Of a stretch of DNA of 64,000 nt, positions 9,097-54,840 are shown piece by piece (positions within the stretch are counted from its first letter, which is position 1; every line of letters starts with the position of its first letter). The notes under the pieces were generated by a model. That model worked only from the letters and a program-made list of their open reading frames with translations. It searched no databases and was not told the origin of the DNA. Made by a program: the position numbers and the translations under genes. Source of the stretch: Apostichopus japonicus. Its lineage: Eukaryota > Echinodermata > Holothuroidea > Aspidochirotida > Stichopodidae. The stretch covers positions 12,506,321 to 12,570,320 of the forward strand of contig NC_092578.1 in the NCBI RefSeq assembly GCF_037975245.1, given 5' to 3'.

Positions 9097-12782
<3,686 letters not shown>

Positions 12783-12847
12783 ATTGCTGAACTTGCCAAG
12801 AACAATAACAAAAGGGCTAAAGACCTTTGAGACTATATACTGCAGTT

Positions 12848-19084: not shown

Positions 19085-21200
<2,116 letters not shown>

Positions 21201-21365
21201 ATTGTGAACACATGTGTGACGGTGCATTCTTGATGCCCCGTTAAACTTAAAATCAAAGACATTCAAATATAACACTAAAAAACATGCTATGATGTGGCAG
21301 ATATAAAACTTGCTCACATTTTGGTCCAACCAATTTCTGCTAACTTTTTGGGCCAGCATTCCACT

Positions 21366-22925: not shown

Positions 22926-25900
22926 ATGGCCCAGGAAAAACGTAGGGAAAGTAGGGTAGTGAGGTCGGCCAAGTCCGAGACTGCCGAAATGGTCGAAACA
23001 CATAACGTTGAGAATGGAAATTTATCAGTTCCGCGACACAACGATATGTCTTTTTCACCAACTGATGTCTTCTCGTGAGTCACTTAAAAGCTACAAATTA
23101 TTGCAAGCCTAAATATGGACAAACTACACATATTAATAATATTCTAGATTATGTAAACTTTAATCAGTAACATATTGAAGTGCTGGAGTTTTCTTGTACA
23201 AGCTACGGCTTCCAAGCCCTTCCACCATTTTCTCTCCGTATTTACTACTTTACAAGATTAATTTTTACCATGGTCACATTGGTAGTGACCATATGGTTAA
23301 ACAGAAGATAGCTCACCAACCTTAAACCTGATTACTGTACATGTAAGGCATACTATAAGGCTTAGGTCTAGCGATCTATTCTATTTCCAAGGGACTCATG
23401 GTATTCACTTGGGATAACATCGTCATGATCAACAGTTACAATCTCAATGTCGACGCACTGAGAGAGAGAGTGGATCACAATGTTTGCTTTTGGTGCCCAG
23501 ACTCTATCTTGGGTGCCTTGTTAGTAAGTGTGATTTGCATTTGTCTTGGTGTGCTCAGGCACATTTTATAGGTAGACTGGAATAGAAAAGGCCTACCCTC
23601 GAATCCATATAGGCTACCCTATACTAGTAGTAAGTAGTATTGTGTGATCATAGAGGTGAACAAATTTAGAACCACAGAAATTGGGAGCCCTTAGTACTAG
23701 TGTATACTAAGTTAGGCCCCTCTACCTAGTAGAAATAGGCTAGGCTTCTGACTCATTAAACTACCTAGGGCCTAGGCCTAGACCTAAGTTATGCTATAGC
23801 TACACTCCTTTGGGTGTCTTTGATTTTGTTTAATCTGTAAGCAGTTGTACAGGTGGTCAGCCCTACAGTGAAGCCGGCATATAAAATACTTCACCTTTGG
23901 TAAGGTTAGAAAGCAAGGAAACCTGTGCCTAAGGTAAAGCTCATCAAACAGCAGAGATCGCTTCTCGGCCTTTTGGCTAAGATCATGTGTAGTATCTGTC
24001 CCCTTTCGAAGGGAATGGTGATGCACACCTGAGGATAATCACACAGTCACAGTCCCGATGCAAGGGGACTGGGGTTGAGAGCGGATCAGTCGTTTGGTAG
24101 TTTGGTTTTCGTGCCCAGGTTCTTTCCTGGGCGACTTTTCCTTAAAAAAAAGCAAAGAACCCTAGTAGGAATGCATTGTGACTTGCCTGCTTGTTCTTTA
24201 AAGGTTAACAGAAATTGTGCCTACTACTGTACAGTAACAATACAGTAGCAACAGTTCTTTATTCAGCCCATTGAACATGGTTGGTACTGCATATCCATCC
24301 CTTACCCAAACATTGTCTGTCTCTCAAACTTCTAAACTGTCTCTTCTTGCGCAAATCCTATTCATAATTAGTCAAAGGTTGCATCTCATTGAAATTTAAA
24401 AATGATTAGGTTTAACAATTTTGTCAAATTTTGTCTGTCCCTCATAGAAAAAGTTTCAGTCTCTCAGGGACATATGATGACCCACCCTTTACAATCTATA
24501 TGTGATTAAGGTTTTGTTTATGGTTGTTAGTTGAGATGTAATCTTTCAGTTTCATAATTTTTCTAATGCAGTTAAGTAGGAAATTATATAAATTCCAAGT
24601 TTAAATGAAACATTACACACTGTGAAACAATTTTCAACATTGTTATTTGATGTTAGATCTTAAAGTATACTAATTCTTGAAAGGTTTATATTCTACAGTA
24701 TTTAGTGTTAACTTTAAATAGTAACTATAAAAAGTAAGAACTATTATGTACTAGGATATTTTGGCAAAGATTTGAAGCACGCTCATCATTAAACTTCTAG
24801 AGATTTTTCCATCAGCAAATTTTATTGAATTACTATAAACAAGCAAAACATCAGTTTTAGAGTTCATTGGACTTTCAAGATTAAAATTTCATGATCAACA
24901 TACAGTATACAGTCCTGGTTTGGAAACAGAAAAAGTAATTAGTCCAAAATTCAACTTAAGTTCTGGCACAGACAGGTATATCCTGTACAACATGCAATAT
25001 GTCCTGACATAATGCATCCTAATACAAACACTGCTATGTTGATGTTTTCCTTTTTCCTACATATATAAGAGTTTATAAAGAAAAAGCAAAAAAGAATTGA
25101 CATTCTCAGCAACAGTAAGCATTTCATCAAGATATTTGAATTCTTCCAATAAAGAACCTTCCAAAGTTAAAAACTTAATTATTTTACTACCAAAGTCTTA
25201 GTACTTTTGAAATTCTATTAAGAAATTGAAATTTAGACATCTTAGTCTCCATAAATCATAAGTTATGACATTTTTGATAAAATTTAATATTTTCTGATAA
25301 GTTTCAGATGCTTCCCAAGATATGATCAAAGATGTCTTCCTTGTTTCTTTCCCTCTGAAGGAAATGTGTTAAAAATATTTAAAGTAATATCAAATCAAAA
25401 AGTTCACTGTAGGATGAACAGAATTTGGAACCACTTGACTGACCAGATGGGAAGCAGATTTATACTATAGAGGCATACTTTAACAGTCCAATTGATGAAT
25501 TTGTTATTTTGTTAAAATAATGTCAAAATATCAAATTGATCTCATCTGCTTAACTATAACAATTGCAAATTCAGCACTTTGTGAGCATGTAAAATAAATT
25601 ACCAACTAATTAATATTGATAATGAAACTCAGAAGACATGTTGAATTTCCTGCCAATCACCAAAATTATTCTATTAATAATTGGTATTGAATCCATGTAA
25701 TAATTTGGACGATGTTTATTGTTGTATTGCTCTCCATCCTTCTAATGTAGGCCTCTAGAGTCCCATATCTCACTGACTCTGGTTCTGAAGATAATTCTGA
25801 TGATGATTAAATACAGCTGCCGTTTTCAAATTTTACAACCTCCGTCCTGGGTTACCTGCCTTCTTGCCTCAAAACACTTTATATGATTCTCAATAAACCA

Positions 25901-28900
25901 ACATAATACTCAATCTATAATTTGTTGTGTTCTTTTTTCTCTTTTTATAGTTTCAAAGGAATAGTGGAAAATGAGACGGAATAGTGTATTTTCAAATCCA
26001 CTATTCCGCTGGAATAGTGGTAAATATTCTTAAATTCGACCCCTGCTCAGTGTTCAGAGATATCATGAAGGCTATTTAAATTTCCAATGCTAATTGATCA
26101 ATCTCTGTGTCTGAGTGACAGTAGTATTTAAGAACAGTTAACTAGCAGACAATAGTTGACAAGGAGACAAGTAGTTCACAAACTTGTAGACAAGTAGTTG
26201 ACCTTGAGCATCACCTTTTGAATCTTCCAGACCCTCCATAGCTGACCAACAAAAGGTTGGCTTCTTTCGGCAGGACAAAGCCACACAGACAGAAGACTCA
26301 GAAATTGTGGAGCTGAAGGACATGACAAAGGTGCTGCAGATATTATTACAGGTGAGCATGACTTGATTTTGAGTTTAAAACTAAGTAAGAAGTCTTCCAA
26401 TCTTTGGTACATTATGACATTCATGTAGACAGGTACATACATGTGTCAACTTACTTAAACAGTGAAGCAGTTTAACTTATAATATGTGTATTTTGCATTT
26501 GATAAACAAAATGCCACTGATTCCTAAAGCTTATGTTACTTACAGCATTGCAAATGTATTGCCTCAGGCTACAATATATGATTGAAGTGCATTTACTAAC
26601 ATAGCTTGTTCGAAGGTACTGCTGTAAAGCAGTGTGCATATGTGTTTGTTGTTTTGAAAAGTATCTTGAGACAATTGTATCACAGTATTAAATTTGCTTA
26701 AGATGTAAACTATCACAAACATTTGGATGGATTCTGATTAATACATTTTTTTGGTGAAATTTATATAAAGTTTTGGTGTAGTGCGATACTAGCAAAGTAA
26801 GTAACTGGTTGTTATTTAGATTATGATTTGACATATTGCTTATAAAGAAAGTTTTCGTCTTTTCAGGAATCCAAAGCTTTAAAACGGGAACTGGCTGTTG
26901 CTAGACAAGTGATTGTAGCAGAATATGAGAACAGATTGCAAGAAAAAGCAATTGATATGTACACAAGAATTAATGACAGACTGGAGCAGTTGGAGAATGC
27001 ACACCAAGAGGTTAGTCAATATTTAAAGAAAGTCCATATTATACAAATTCAAAATATCCATGATGGAGGGGGAAGGGTGAGGGGAGGGTTAAAGCCTCTT
27101 TTATTGCTATCTTTAAGTGAAAATACTTTTAAGTACATAGCAAGTTTCAAAGCTCTCAAATGGTCTCAAAACTGGCCGTTTTCTCTATAACATATATACT
27201 AGATGACTTTTGATTTGGTAGTAAGTTGTGAAAATATTTCACAGGGTATCATGTAGAGCTTTCATTTTTCATTACCAATTATTAAACAAATGTTTGCAAG
27301 GTGGCAGAGCTGCTTTGCGAGCTGTGAAATTGACAACAGAAAGTGTCCTTTTATGCATACATCTATGTGTCTATATTTCATATAGCAAGACTGTTCTATC
27401 TGGATTTTGAAACATTTGGAATGAAAATTCTATACTGTTTAAAACCATGCCAGTGATCTAAATGGTTGATTCCCACGAGGGATTGCTACAAACAAGAGCT
27501 GAAAATCTCTGATCTTTTCTGGTTCTCATTTAATTCTTGGACACTTGCTATGTGGAATTTTGAGCAAATTATATGGCAAGGATTCACAAAGTCAACTGGC
27601 TTTCTGGTAAGGGTTGTCATGGTGACAAAAAAAAGGGACACGGACTGTGGTAAAGCAGTAGTTTGTAAGCATTTAGCTTCAATCTGGCAAGCAGTTAACA
27701 TTTTGACATCTGAATGTAACTACTTGTTGTTTGGTTTCTAGAGAATAGCCGTTGTGAGGAGGAGCTACAGAACACAGTTGGCTGATGCAATTGCAAGGAT
27801 AACCAATGAGTGGAAGGTATGTTCCTATTTCAGGATGATGGTATGATCCATTTTGAAATATTTCCATGTTGTTCTTCTCAGTCAGATCCAGTCACTTAAA
27901 GTGAGGGAGGGGTTGTGGGTGCGGGGGGTGGGCGGGGGTTTGGATGGAGTTAAAGTGGCTGTTTAATTTTTCCAAATAAAGGTATGAAGCATATCCTTCA
28001 AAGGACAGTGTCAACATTGAAAATCTTAAACTGTCTCAAGAAATTCGGAGTCTGTTGCAGGTTTGGGAAGAGGTTGAATGTGTCTCCAATATGGCTGATA
28101 AACCTCGGGCTCAATGTACAGGAAACAGAAGAAGTAATAAGTTTTAGAGAAAATATGATGCTTTTGTTTTCTGAAGTATGGTTTACTTTACATACATGGG
28201 GCTAGCAGTAATGTAACTTCTCTATTTCAGAAACATGCTAATTCCAAGATGAACATGGAGTTGAGAAAGGATGCCAGTCGAAGCGCAAAAGTTTCAGAAG
28301 ATCATAAACAGTTACAACAGCAACTGAGTCAACAAGAGAACATCATACAGATGTTAAAAATGCAGCTAGAGCAGCAAGCACAGGTAAGCATCTCATAATC
28401 TATGCTACCAATCCATGTTACAGTATGGTTAGAGCAGCAAACAAAGCATCTCATAAACTATGCTCCAATCCATGTTATGATATGGTTAGAGCAGCAAACA
28501 CAGGTAAGCATCTCATAATCAATGCTACCAATCCATATTACAGTATGGTTAGAGCAGCAAGCACAGGTAAGCATCTCATAATCTATGCTCCAATTCATAT
28601 TACAGTATGGTTAGAGCAGAAAACACAGGTAAGCATCTCATAATCTATGCTACCAATCCATAATACAGTAGAGCAGCAAACACAGGTATGCATTTTATAA
28701 TGTATACTGCCAATCCATATTACAGTATGGTTAGAGCATCAACCACAGGTAAGCATCTCATAATATATGCTCCAATTGATATTACAGTATGGTTAGAGCA
28801 GAAAACACAGGTAACATCTCATAATCTATGCTACCAATCCATATTACAGCATGGTTATAGCAGAAAACACAGGTAAGCATCTCATAATCTATGCTCCAAT

Positions 28901-31900
28901 TCATATTACAGTATGGTTAGAGCAGAAAACACAGGTAAGCATCTCATAATCTATGCTACCAATCCATAATACAGTAGAGCAGCAAACACAGGTATGCATT
29001 TTATAATGTATACTGCCAATCCATATTACAGTATGGTTAGAGCATCAACCACAGGTAAGCATCTCATAATATATGCTCCAATTGATATTACAGTATGGTT
29101 AGAGCAGAAAACACAGGTAACATCTCATAATCTATGCTACCAACCCATATTACAGCATGGTTATAGCAGCAAGCACATGCAAGAATATATGCTCCAATCC
29201 TCTATTCCATTATTCTATGATTGGTGCAACACACACTGATAGCAATACATACCCCCATCTTGAATCTCAGTGTTCCCATCACATTGCGTTCATGCCGGGG
29301 TTCTCACTGGCTATTTCTGCCTGTTTCTGCTGTAGGAGGTGAGAAGTGAAGCATCAACGCCAAGTGCCGTTTATGAAGCGGAGCACCTGAGAGATGAGCT
29401 GGGTCAACTACAAAATAAAATAGACTCACTGGAGGAGTCCCTGGATGTCAAGGAGGAAACTCTGGAGGAATTCAGTAAGAATCTTTAAGCTCCATCATCA
29501 AAGGCAGCAATTATGTATTTCAATGGTGAAGGGGGGGGGGGGGGAGGGAGGGGTTGGGAGAGTGGTTAAGTAATCCTGTAGGACCTCATTGCAGTATTTG
29601 GTTACCTGGTAGGATTTTGCTATTATTGCTGGTCATCCACAAAGGCCTTTTAAAATGTCAATAAAGTCATGTCCAGTGACAACAGGATAATTGCTATTGA
29701 TTTAAAATGTAGTTGTGGTATTTTGCAAGTTGGGCTGATTATTCTTTCAGTACTCTTGTGCATCTAGACACTTTATTATCAAGCTTCTAACATTGTACGC
29801 CTGTGTGTGTGTGTGTCTGTGATATCATTGGCTGTACTTTGTTAATCAGATAAAAACACATCTATAAATAATTCAAAATAATTCAATGCTTCAAAGTCTA
29901 CAAATAGTCAATTCAATTACATATTCCATCATCAAGATACTCCTAAATATGTTTGAACATTCACAAATTCATCCTTACAGAAAATGATGTCGAAAGGTTA
30001 AACAGAGAACTGGAAAAGGAGAAAGTTCGTGTGAAGCAGGTAAGATCGTCTTTGAGGATTCTTTTGCTGGTCAAGTTGCCAAGATCTTTAAAAATAATTT
30101 GTTCAGAGGTTTTGTGTATTGATCATACATTACCCATCAACCCTCAAACCATCTCCCACTCCTGTAAAAGAAATATTCAACAAAACACTTCACCAAAGCA
30201 TATACTTATCTGATTTACAGATTGCGAGAAAATGACATTTGGAGCTTACCACAAACCCACAAAATGTTAATCAGTATGAACATGGTTGTGATGTCGTGGA
30301 TTCACTTTGTCTAGACTGCCCAAATTATTTCAAGGTACTCGATCACTGAGTCCTGTTTCCAAGACACCCTTCCTGACCATTTGATTACAGTGTATACAAT
30401 ATTTCTGTTTATTCACCTATGAAGATGAAGTGTTACTGAAATATATAGTATTGTGACTTATAATGGAGTATTAAGAGGGATTCCAGGGTTAATGTGCTCC
30501 ATGGATACAAAGTGAATCCGTGGTATCACAACATTGTTCATTTAAAAACTTTTAGTGGTTGAGGTTTTTTTTCGAATATCGTTTCCTCTGGACCTGCAAT
30601 TCCTATGAGTATATGTTTTGGTGAAGTGTTGTTTTGCATTTTGCAGGTTATCAAATATGAAAGAAACTAGTCTTTTAAGTAACATTACATTGGTTTGGGT
30701 TGCAACCCCTGCTGTTCCATGAATCTTTTAGGAGACATTTAAAAAAAAAAAAAAAAATTTTTGTCCCTGAACACTCTTATTATGTTGTCTTGCTTTACTT
30801 TGCATTGTCATGCATATTGAATGGAGTTGAGGTGTGAATATAATCTTTTGTATCTTTGTTATGTGTAGCTGGAAACTGAGATGGATGAACAGCAAGCCAG
30901 TGCTGCACAAGAAATGTCATCCCTGAGAAGAATTGTAAGTAGTAGTAGTGGTAGTGGTAGTAGTGGTTTTAGTAGTACTATAAGTAGTGGTAGTAGTAGT
31001 AGTTGTAGTATTAGTAGAAGTGGTAGTAGTATTAGTAGTAGTAGTGGTAGTAGAGGTAGTAGTAGTGGTAGTAGTGGTAATAGTAGTAGTAGCAGTAGTA
31101 GTAGTAGTATAGTTGTAGTAGTAGTGGTAGTGGTAGTAGTGGTGGTAGTGGTAGTGGTAGTAGTAGTAGTAGTAGGAGTAGGTGTAGTAGTATAGTTGTA
31201 GTAGTAGTAGTGGTAGTGGTAGTAGTGGTGGTAGTGGTAGTAGTAGAAGTAGTAGTAGGAGTAGGTGTAGTAGTATAGTTGTAGTAGTATTAGTTATAGT
31301 AGTAGTAGTAGAAGTAGTAGTGGTAGTGGTAGAAATAGTAGTAGTAGTAGTGGTAGTAGTAGTAGTTGTAGTAGTAGTGGTAGTAGTGGAAGTAGTGGTA
31401 GTAGTAGTAGTTGTAGCAGTAGTAGTAGTAGTATAGTTGTAGTAGTAGTAGTGGTAGTGGTAGTAGTGGTAGTAGTAGTAGTAGTTGTAGTAGTAGTGGT
31501 AGTAGTAGGAGTAGGTGTAGTAGTATAGTTGTAGTAGTAGTAGTGGTAGTGGTAGTAGTGGTAGTAGTAGTAGTAGTTGTAGTAGTAGTGGTAGTAGTGG
31601 TAGTAGTGGTAGTAGTGGTAGTAGTGGTAGTAGTGGTAGTAGTGGTAGTAGTAGTAGTAGTAGTAGCAGTAGTAGTAGTAGTATAGTTGTAGTAGTAGTA
31701 GTGGTAGTAGTGGTGGTAGTGGTAGTAGTAGTAGTAGTAGTAGTAGGAGTAGGTGTAGTAGTATAGTTGTAGTAGTAGTAGTGGTAGTGGTAGTAGTGGT
31801 GGTAGTGGTAGTAGTAGAAGTAGTAGTAGGAGTAGGTGTAGTAGTATAGTTGTAGTAGTATTAGTTATAGTAGTAGTAGTAGAAGTAGTAGTGGTAGTGG

Positions 31901-34900
31901 TAGAAATAGTAGTAGTAGTAGTAGTGGTAGTAGTAGTAGTAGTTGTAGTAGTAGTGGTAGTAGTTGTAGTAGTAGTAGTAGTAGCAGTAGTAGCGGTAGA
32001 AGTAGTAGTAGTAGTAGTGGTAGTGGTAGTGGTAGTGGTAGAAATAGTAGTAGGAGTAGTGGTAGTAGTAGTAGTGGTAGTGGTACAGAGCGTTATGGTC
32101 AAGTGGTTAAGGCAGTGGACGTGTGATCTAAGGATTGCAGGTTCGAGTCCTGGCCAGATCATTGTGTTGTGTCCTTGGGTAAGGCACTTTATCTCAATTA
32201 CCTCTCTTCACCCAGGTGTATAAATAGGGACCTGTGAAATAAAACTGTCAGCTGGCCCTGTTTAGCTGCTGCCATGTGGAGGGATTGTCTCTATGTTTGA
32301 TAGGTTATTGCTGAACCTGGTAATATTGTGATCTGCCTTGAGCACCATTATCATTGGATATATCTGCGCTCTATAAATCCTCAATATTATTATTAATAAG
32401 TAGTAGTGATGAAGATGGTGGTGAAGATGGTGGTGAAGGTGGTGGTGAAGGTGGTGGTGAGTTGTATATGGTGGCGATGTGTTTGATGGTTGTGGTGAAG
32501 CTGTTGTTGGTGGTGACTTTTGTTGAAGGAGGTGATGGTGGCAAAGATGTTAGTGGTGATGTTGATGGTGGTGGTGGTGTTAATGATGGTGGTGGTAGTG
32601 AAGACGATATTGATGGTGGTAACAGGTGTTACTATTACTTAATGTAGTGAATGGCATTGAGGGTTTCTTATAAAAATCACATAAAGATGTTGCTTGTTAG
32701 CTTAGCTGTTCAAGTTTTGGTCAGGATAATTTGTAATTTGAATTATTGTTTTGGTTTGGTTCTGGATAATACTAACGACACAAAATTGGCTGGGGGTGAC
32801 AGATCTGTAAAAACTGATTGCATTCTTAAATTAATCTGTGAGTCAGTGATCTTTGAGTCAAAAAATCTAGTATCTTATAAATGGATAACTTGTTATCACA
32901 TTCTGATGAATTATTTGGTATGTTTGGGAAAATTGCTTCAAGTTATTGATGAAATGTAAAAAGGATGTTTTTAAACAATCTTATAAAATCCACCGTAGGG
33001 AAACTAGGGTTCGCAACTACAGTTCACACAATTTGAAGTTCATTTGGAACCTTCAACCTCCATTCTCTCTCCCCTTCACATTCCCTTCTTCTTTGCCACC
33101 CACATTCCTTTCATCTTTGCTTCTCTGCCCCTCCAAAAATGGTCTCTGAAACTCATTTACCCTCACATAGGGCACAGCTACTCATATTTGGTGATTGCAC
33201 AGTGATGTATTCTGCATGACTTGTTTCATATACCTGTTTTAATGAAGTTGTATTGCTCTCTATTTCACAGGCTGACAAACAAAGGATGCAAATGGAGAAA
33301 GATATTCAAGACAAGATGAAGAAGGCAAGAGAGGATGTAAGTGCTACTGTTCTCCCTTCCTCTCTGGCAATGAGAAATGGACAGTGATTATCAAGACAAC
33401 AGACAAGTCATAGTACTTCACAAAGGTTTCAGAGAGTTTCCTTTGGGTAGTGCTCGCCATCCCTCCTCCACCACCCCTCTCCCTCCTACCTCAGTTATAT
33501 TCAGACTTTCAGGAGTGTTAACTTAGACATATCTCTGTGGCCTTGTGGTCGTAACAGATGTCTGATGCACTTGAAAAAGTCTCTTACACTTCTTCCATAC
33601 AAATATCCAGGTAGGCATACAACAGTGTTATAGCTGAGGTAGCTAGGCATATACAGGTACCCTATTAATAATAATCATAATAATAATAATAATCAGCAGT
33701 TATTTTTACAACGCTTAAGCGACCACAAATGTGGGAGAAACCCGCAATGGCTTATGGATTACAACTTACACGTCGGATGGCTTCCAATTCAACATTTTAA
33801 CTCAAATTTGGAATCTTTTCAATTTAGAAAGTCATTTCAGATGGGAAAACTGTAGATTGCTCTTGGATGAACAACCCACCTTATTAGGCAGACTAGAGAC
33901 AATGGCAAGCCTACATTATTATAATCATTGGCTGATAACTGTTTCGGCTATGTTGCACACCCTCTTAGATAAGATGAAATGCTATATGTACAAGTTATAC
34001 AATGTAAAGTTAATTAAGCACAAGAACTACTTTGCAAAACCAGTTGGAACACAAAAAGAAAATGATGAGACCATCTAATTTGCATAACTTACTTGAAATG
34101 TGTTGGAATATGGTTAATATGTTATGTTGGTAAATGACACACAACCACCTGCCTTGAAGGACAACTGTACATGAGATACTAATAATATTGATACATGGTA
34201 GGATAAAATTTCGGATTTCTTGAATGCTTCTTGGAAGTCAAAAGTTGATGACAACATCAACACCTCAGTGGAAGCCTCTTCTATCATTTTACATTTATTA
34301 ATTTTCTGTAAGTTATTAATCTTTGACCTTTGTTACTGCCTGTCTGATAGATGCTTAATATAGCCAAGGATCACGCCGCTGAACAACAACGGCAGGAACA
34401 AGAGAAAGCCAGATTATTAAAAGAACAGAAGAAAGCAGAAACAGCACTCAGGGCAAAGGTACGTACATCATTAAACGCTACTCTCTGCAGCAGTTAAGTT
34501 TGGTAACGATTTCAAAATATTTGACGCAACAATCCCATAACTGTATAGTTTATCAGCTCTACTCATCCAATTTCTTGCCAGTGATGAAGATTAGTTTCAA
34601 ATGTTGTCAATTTACCTCCTAGTTTTACTTCCTAGTTGTGATGCGCCCTATATCCGTGCATCGATAGAATCTTATTAAAACCTGACCTGGAGTGACTTTT
34701 CAGTCATCAGTGTGATCCATTAGGCATTATGGACTGGGGGAGGAAGGAGTGTGGGGGAGGGAGGGGAGGGGACAAGGATCAGACAAAACACAATGGGGTT
34801 ATATATAATATTACACACACTAGGTGGTCATGTGCAATTTATGATGCATTGTAAGTTTATGTGATGCATAGTATGTGATGAATATAAGTAGTAATACGTG

Positions 34901-46272: not shown

Positions 46273-54840
<8,568 letters not shown>

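Follow-up and report, generated by a model that had tools for sequence, protein, structure and literature searches.

In 2015 Kojima reportedly described, in crocodilians, short interspersed elements (SINEs) called SINEU, whose heads derive from the small nuclear RNAs (snRNAs) U1 or U2. We analysed a 64,000-nucleotide stretch of the Apostichopus japonicus genome (contig NC_092578.1, positions 12,506,321 to 12,570,320 of the forward strand; hereafter the window), in which a short RNA-like element, copy A, carries the 5' end of U2 on a tail that is not U2, and in which a diverged relative of that tail, copy B, is found some 620 bases upstream on the same strand. From our results, capture of a fragment of U2 is the most likely origin of copy A, and a second functional splicing RNA is less likely. 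The analysis covers this one window of 64 kb and its two copies, and the gene signals searched for are consensus motifs of other animals.

Two kinds of described sequence are relevant from the outset. SINEs with snRNA heads are treated as a recognised class in PMC7245038 and PMC5753468, and chimeras of LINE-1 with U1, U2, U4, U5 and U6 are listed in PMC13174262.

A U2 head, a non-U2 tail and a second copy of the tail

The head of copy A is identical to nucleotides (nt) 1-46 of human U2 at 43/46 bases and departs from it by A30T, T44C and T46C; where the first-pass annotation had counted a single clear change, there are actually three. Both stem-loop I and the branch-point-pairing region GTAGTA are present. 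The Rfam model of U2 (RF00004) reports copy A at 51.6 bits (gathering cut-off 46, E 2.4e-7) with a start exactly at 23957, and over the model's 3' half the two align poorly and with gaps; as yardsticks, a full-length U2 scores 172.1 bits and a U2 truncated after 76 positions scores 93.8 bits. With U2 nt 1-46 as the query, blastn returned 23957-23999 (E 1.6e-16), and the 21-mer TCGGCCTTTTGGCTAAGATCA of the head has a single occurrence in the window at up to three mismatches, an exact one, and matches in none of 100 shuffles. Copy A is also the sole U2 that Rfam reports in the window. These searches confirm that the U2-headed sequence at 23957 is real and that it runs, as proposed earlier, from the first base of U2 through stem-loop I and GTAGTA.

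The same first-pass annotation held that nothing of U2 remains beyond the head, and this is borne out: when the copy A tail was compared with U2 from nt 44 onward, scores as good were obtained by 88% (+ strand) and 60% (- strand) of 1000 random stretches, the corresponding values for the copy B tail being 42% (+) and 72% (-), so that the likeness of either tail to the rest of U2 is no better than that of random sequence. What the tail does resemble is copy B. Local alignment places this second copy at about 23356-23519 with a score of 93, compared with a best score of 54 among 578 control stretches; nhmmer leads from the copy A tail to copy B (E 1.4e-7), and the reverse search leads back to copy A (E 1.6e-7). 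In the alignment of the two tails over 24003-24138, identical bases fill 97/124 ungapped columns, there are 26 gap columns, and the similarity stops after about 135 bases of tail. No third tail copy was found by nhmmer in the 64 kb (next best E 0.78), and a covariance model made from the two copies gave two matches in the window at E up to 10, namely the two originals, which match by construction. The existence of a diverged second copy of the tail strengthens the chimera as a real unit, and copy B is most likely an older, decayed relative of copy A.

Copy B possibly carries the remains of a U2 head as well. An alignment of U2 nt 19-46 immediately before its tail agrees at 19/24 aligned bases, contains a 4-base gap that deletes part of GTAGTA, and adjoins the tail at the same junction as in copy A. 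At the sites where copy A differs from U2 (nt 30, 44 and 46), copy B has the U2 base in 3/3 cases, in an alignment that was fitted to U2. Judged from these sequence comparisons, the fusion of head and tail probably predates the split between A and B, and, if so, copy B has since lost a recognisable nt 1-18 together with part of GTAGTA.

Two other identities for the tail were tried and rejected: spliced-leader RNA, for which an inspection made by eye only revealed no good splice donor, and an inverted copy of the U2 head, the alignment score of which (14) was equalled by 59% of 2000 shuffles. The copy A tail had no match to phages at E up to 1. A U2 5' pattern had no matches in a viral contig collection, and a slightly shorter form of it had two in a genome contig collection, both of them U2 according to Rfam, one complete and one truncated at the end of the stretch, on contigs filed as bacterial. 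One contig filed as bacterial, JAOZOU010000036.1 (1-5648), holds U2, U1, 5S ribosomal RNA and three histone 3' stem-loops and for this reason appears to be eukaryotic DNA binned with a bacterial genome; a second contig, filed as Trichormus, likewise has a U2 start.

Hairpins and snRNA gene signals

Three hairpins had been proposed for the tail. They can indeed be drawn in copy A, but on its own the tail is no more stably folded than its shuffles (20/200 fold as well, z -1.30; 22% of 500 in a second run), and only the terminal hairpin is exceptional. Among GC-matched 30-mers from elsewhere in the window, with the hairpins themselves excluded, 0/644 are as stable as this hairpin of copy A, and 2/1109 are as stable as its counterpart in copy B. 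The differences between the two hairpins are mixed: two pairs change between G-C and G-U, one pair is broken in B, and two outer pairs form in B only; there are 0 two-sided changes. The antisense of the copy A tail departs more strongly from its own shuffles (2/200, z -3.16) than does the sense strand. Copy A as a whole folds modestly better than shuffles (2/200; 1.4% of 500), whereas copy B as a whole does not (41/200). The corresponding values for copy A are 1.8% of 500 with the head held fixed, 2.2% of 500 for the energy gained by joining head and tail, and 6% of 500 for the hairpin at nt 26-78 alone. In its best fold copy A pairs its own U2 branch-point region with the tail, through a weakly supported pairing.

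We also considered, and rejected, a special pairing between the head and the tail of copy A, the duplex energy of which was matched by 12.8% of 1000 shuffles; in the other duplexes, shuffles were as good in 21.6% of cases for the U2 head with the A tail, 52.4% for the U2 head with the B tail and 26.1% for the A head with the B tail. The change at nt 30 as a fit to the tail was discarded too, since restoring the usual U2 base shifts the fold energy by only 0.1 kcal/mol.

The signals expected of an snRNA gene are absent or at chance level. The U-rich stretch and following hairpin had been likened to those of Sm-class snRNAs; the hairpin is present, but no canonical Sm site is formed by the U-rich stretch. 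The best candidates for such a site have 3/9 or 2/7 positions wrong in copy A (chance 0.58 and 0.54) and 2/9 or 1/7 in copy B (chance 0.15 and 0.12). For the proximal sequence element (PSE) and the 3' box we used the human consensus given in PMC5493778, which may differ in this animal: for the PSE, expected near -55, the site at 23891 departs from the consensus at 4 positions (chance 0.20), and the 3' box of copy A does so at 3 (chance 0.39); a scan with another set of consensus sequences was likewise at chance level. An exact octamer, ATTTGCAT, occurs at 23533 (chance 0.041 in the 500 bases searched); it is one of several motifs tried and has 11 occurrences in the window, both orientations counted. 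No octamer lies in the -260 to -160 stretch scanned for the distal sequence element (DSE) of copy A, and position 23533 is outside that stretch. With regard to a possible pol III gene, copy A by eye contains words resembling box A and box B and has TTTT after the hairpin; copy B has no TTTT.

Origin of the pair

The account that we tentatively favour, at slightly below an even chance, is that copy A is a U2-headed chimera, generated by template switching or by a capture like that of SINEU elements, and that a local duplication or a second insertion followed. A reverse transcriptase would have jumped to U2 RNA, continued as far as its 5' end and in this way fused the first 46 nt of U2 with the 3' portion of a different small RNA or short element, one with a strong terminal hairpin; alternatively, the head may have been captured in the way of SINEU elements. 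Copy B would then be an old, decayed copy and copy A a younger or better preserved one, the pair having arisen by local duplication or by two separate insertions. This account is supported by the extent of the U2 match, which spans nt 1 to about nt 46 with the rest of U2 absent, by the tail common to two copies, of which B possibly shares the junction, and by the lack of snRNA signals above chance. Both the reverse transcription and the direction of copying are what we infer from this arrangement. Since a reverse transcriptase working on U2 RNA copies to its 5' end, the retention of exactly the 5' part of U2 does not by itself imply function; the first-pass annotation had taken this retention as an argument against decay, and a template-switch chimera would show it too. 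We infer that the pair is probably without a function in splicing and that any transcription of it would be as part of a host-gene intron.

Several observations weigh against a chimera formed by retroposition. The tail has no Rfam family near its cut-off (best E 1.6, 15.3 bits versus 97). Flanking target-site duplications, named earlier among the signs of a retroposon, were not found for copy A at the thresholds used, which were 6 exact bases or at least 9 with one mismatch; a similar rule also gave none at copy A and gave one at 43/244 random places. This is so although the head of copy A looks young. A dispersed SINE would not be expected to show this distribution, in which both copies fall within 620 bases and the remainder of the 64 kb has none. 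Copy A is much better preserved than copy B, which constraint would explain too. As for a U2 head in copy B, the score obtained there with the copy A head as the query was equalled by 85% of random stretches, anchored tests gave 10% (copy A head) and 3.5% (U2), and neither blastn nor nhmmer with U2 nt 1-46 reported the copy B head at E up to 10. On the other hand, the run of 8 A after copy A is possibly the remnant of an A-tail, or due to chance, and an imperfect, A-rich flanking repeat matching at 9/11 bases, AAACAGCAGAG before copy A and AAAAAGCAAAG after it, was seen by eye and could be a worn target-site duplication; AAAAAGCAAAG overlaps the run of 8 A.

The better preservation of copy A would be expected if it were a working snRNA-like gene in or next to the host gene, with copy B as its pseudogene and the hairpin stabilising the RNA, a reading that we consider rather unlikely. 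Its U2 5' domain might in that case contact branch points or compete with U2. The head of A kept as described above and eroded in B, the terminal hairpin formed by both copies, the lack of clear likeness between their flanks, the octamer and the somewhat better than shuffled fold of the whole of copy A would all be in keeping with such a gene. Against it stand the missing canonical Sm site of A (the best candidate of B is still 1/7 positions off), a PSE and 3' box at the level of chance and a DSE stretch lacking the octamer, as well as a hairpin 3 that is broken in B, a fold of B no better than shuffles and an antisense tail that folds better than the sense one, each relative to its shuffles. 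SF3 and A'/B'' bind later domains of U2, and the parts of U2 required for this binding are missing from copy A; moreover, its best fold, by the weakly supported pairing mentioned above, ties up its own branch-point region. The more specific possibility that copy A is an expressed snRNA-like RNA kept by selection, which presents the branch-point-pairing domain of U2 on a different scaffold whose 3' hairpin is conserved and which serves at branch points as a decoy for U2 or modulates it, with B a dead relative, appears quite improbable. If copy A were both expressed and conserved, branch points could be read by another RNA besides U2, one that lacks the remainder of the U2 molecule. Of the first-pass proposal, the chimera of a U2 5' domain with an unrelated tail therefore stands, and has gained a second copy of the tail, while the working second snRNA is left without the signals expected of it.

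The proximity of the two copies and their common orientation would also be explained if a rearrangement at the DNA level had brought the beginning of a U2 gene next to sequence unrelated to it, with a later tandem duplication of the block, both copies being inert. There is a weak hint of continuing similarity in the 3' flank (3.3% and 6.5% of controls), but in the remaining comparisons of the flanks 9% to 81% of controls did as well, and similarity between the flanks of A and B is not established. This scenario is unlikely, as the U2 match begins at the start of the RNA, and as neutral tandem copies should decay equally, yet the head of A is far better preserved. Very improbable, finally, is a junction between U2 and a retrotransposon that targets U2 genes, Utopia or Keno. 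According to PMC4640811, the U2 sequence after Utopia insertions begins at nt 39, near the junction of copy A, but a blastn search of the window with U2 from nt 39 to its end reached E 1.1 at best, Rfam found no second U2, and the A/B similarity stops after the roughly 135 bases of tail noted above; it is the failure to find this later part of U2 anywhere in the window that disfavours such a junction.

Host gene, neighbours and known systems

Both copies lie in sense orientation upstream of two exons that encode a DUF4709 domain (PF15821), matched at 98 bits by exons 2 and 3 together and at 43.9 bits by the open frame of exon 3 alone. Similarity to DUF4709 is confined to exons 2 and 3 and starts after exon 1, so that exon 1, and with it the intron location, is a proposal. 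The proposed exon keeps an open frame from its start codon to the GTGAGT donor, in a phase that fits exon 2, and copies A and B are probably within intron 1 of this gene. If the proposed exon 1 is wrong, the first known exon of the gene is downstream of both copies. Upstream of exon 2, at 25958-26020, GGAATAGTG words and one reverse-complement copy were seen by eye and resemble a short inverted-repeat element. The coordinates of all features are collected in the table.

Features of copies A and B and of the proposed host gene, in window coordinates
Feature	Coordinates	Strand	Basis
Copy A head, matching U2 nt 1-46 with stem-loop I and branch-point-pairing GTAGTA	23957..24002	+	Rfam, blastn, base comparison
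Copy A tail, non-U2, common to copy B	24003..24137	+	nhmmer, alignment
Hairpin 1 of copy A (CCCTT/AAGGG); 4/5 pairs possible in B	24001..24013	+	fold, pair comparison
Hairpin 3 of copy A (CAGTCCC/GGGACTG); 3/7 pairs broken in B	24050..24071	+	fold, pair comparison
U-rich stretch before terminal hairpin of copy A; no canonical Sm site	24097..24109	+	motif scan
Terminal hairpin of copy A (core GCCCAGG/CCTGGGC), also in B	24110..24135	+	stability control, pairs
Run of 8 A after copy A	24144..24151	+	sequence
Possible decayed U2 head of copy B, nt 19-46	23359..23382	+	alignment, 2.4% of random stretches as good
Copy B tail, diverged relative of copy A tail	23383..23519	+	local alignment, nhmmer
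Terminal hairpin of copy B	23492..23517	+	fold, pairs, stability control
Proposed exon 1 of host gene, start codon to donor GTGAGT	22926..23074	+	by eye; phase fits exon 2, without homology support
Exon 2 of host gene	26231..26351	+	sequence; PF15821 DUF4709 match together with exon 3
Exon 3 of host gene	26867..27010	+	PF15821 DUF4709

The window as a whole looks like animal DNA, with open frames elsewhere in it that resemble actin and the alpha/beta subunits of ATP synthase. The + strand has a pair of similar actin regions (10666-12792 and 19624-21209), apparently a local duplication, which share a last-exon match of 537 bases at 97.2%; the comparison with Pfam covered the first of them. Repeats comprise a tandem array at 47444-48732 (38-base unit, about 34 copies, 93% matches), an AGT-type trinucleotide array of about 385 units at 30938-32085 (GC skew 0.565 over 30001-32000) and a 62-base tandem repeat at 28367-29177 with higher-order periods of 182 and 306. 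ARAGORN called a tRNA-Gln (ttg) at 50932-51022, overlapping a short inverted repeat at 50880-50947; the call is probably spurious, as Rfam, at its cut-offs, reports none in the window.

Among described systems, the snRNA chimeric retrogenes of the U6/LINE-1 type (PMC13174262) resemble copy A in having a 5' snRNA segment in sense joined to other sequence, and the U2 5' end is present in copy A; copy A differs from them in that no duplication was found, in that its tail has a second copy and in that its U2 part ends at nt 46. The Utopia and Keno insertions in U2 genes interrupt U2 near nt 39 (PMC4640811), similar to the end of the U2 match in copy A, and the window lacks the U2 sequence from nt 39 on that would be located downstream of such an insert. 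In comparison with U2 itself (RF00004), copy A has nt 1-46 and is without stem-loops IIa/IIb, a canonical Sm site and the 3' domain with stem-loops III and IV. With SINEU, copy A has in common the U2 5' end on an unrelated tail, an arrangement that is clear in A and weakly indicated in B, which may share the junction; it differs in that only two neighbouring copies occur in the 64 kb and in that target-site duplications, which are said to vary in such elements, were not found at the thresholds used. If the retroposed origin is correct, the chimera would extend the U2-headed elements of SINEU type, reportedly known from crocodilians, to another animal genome.
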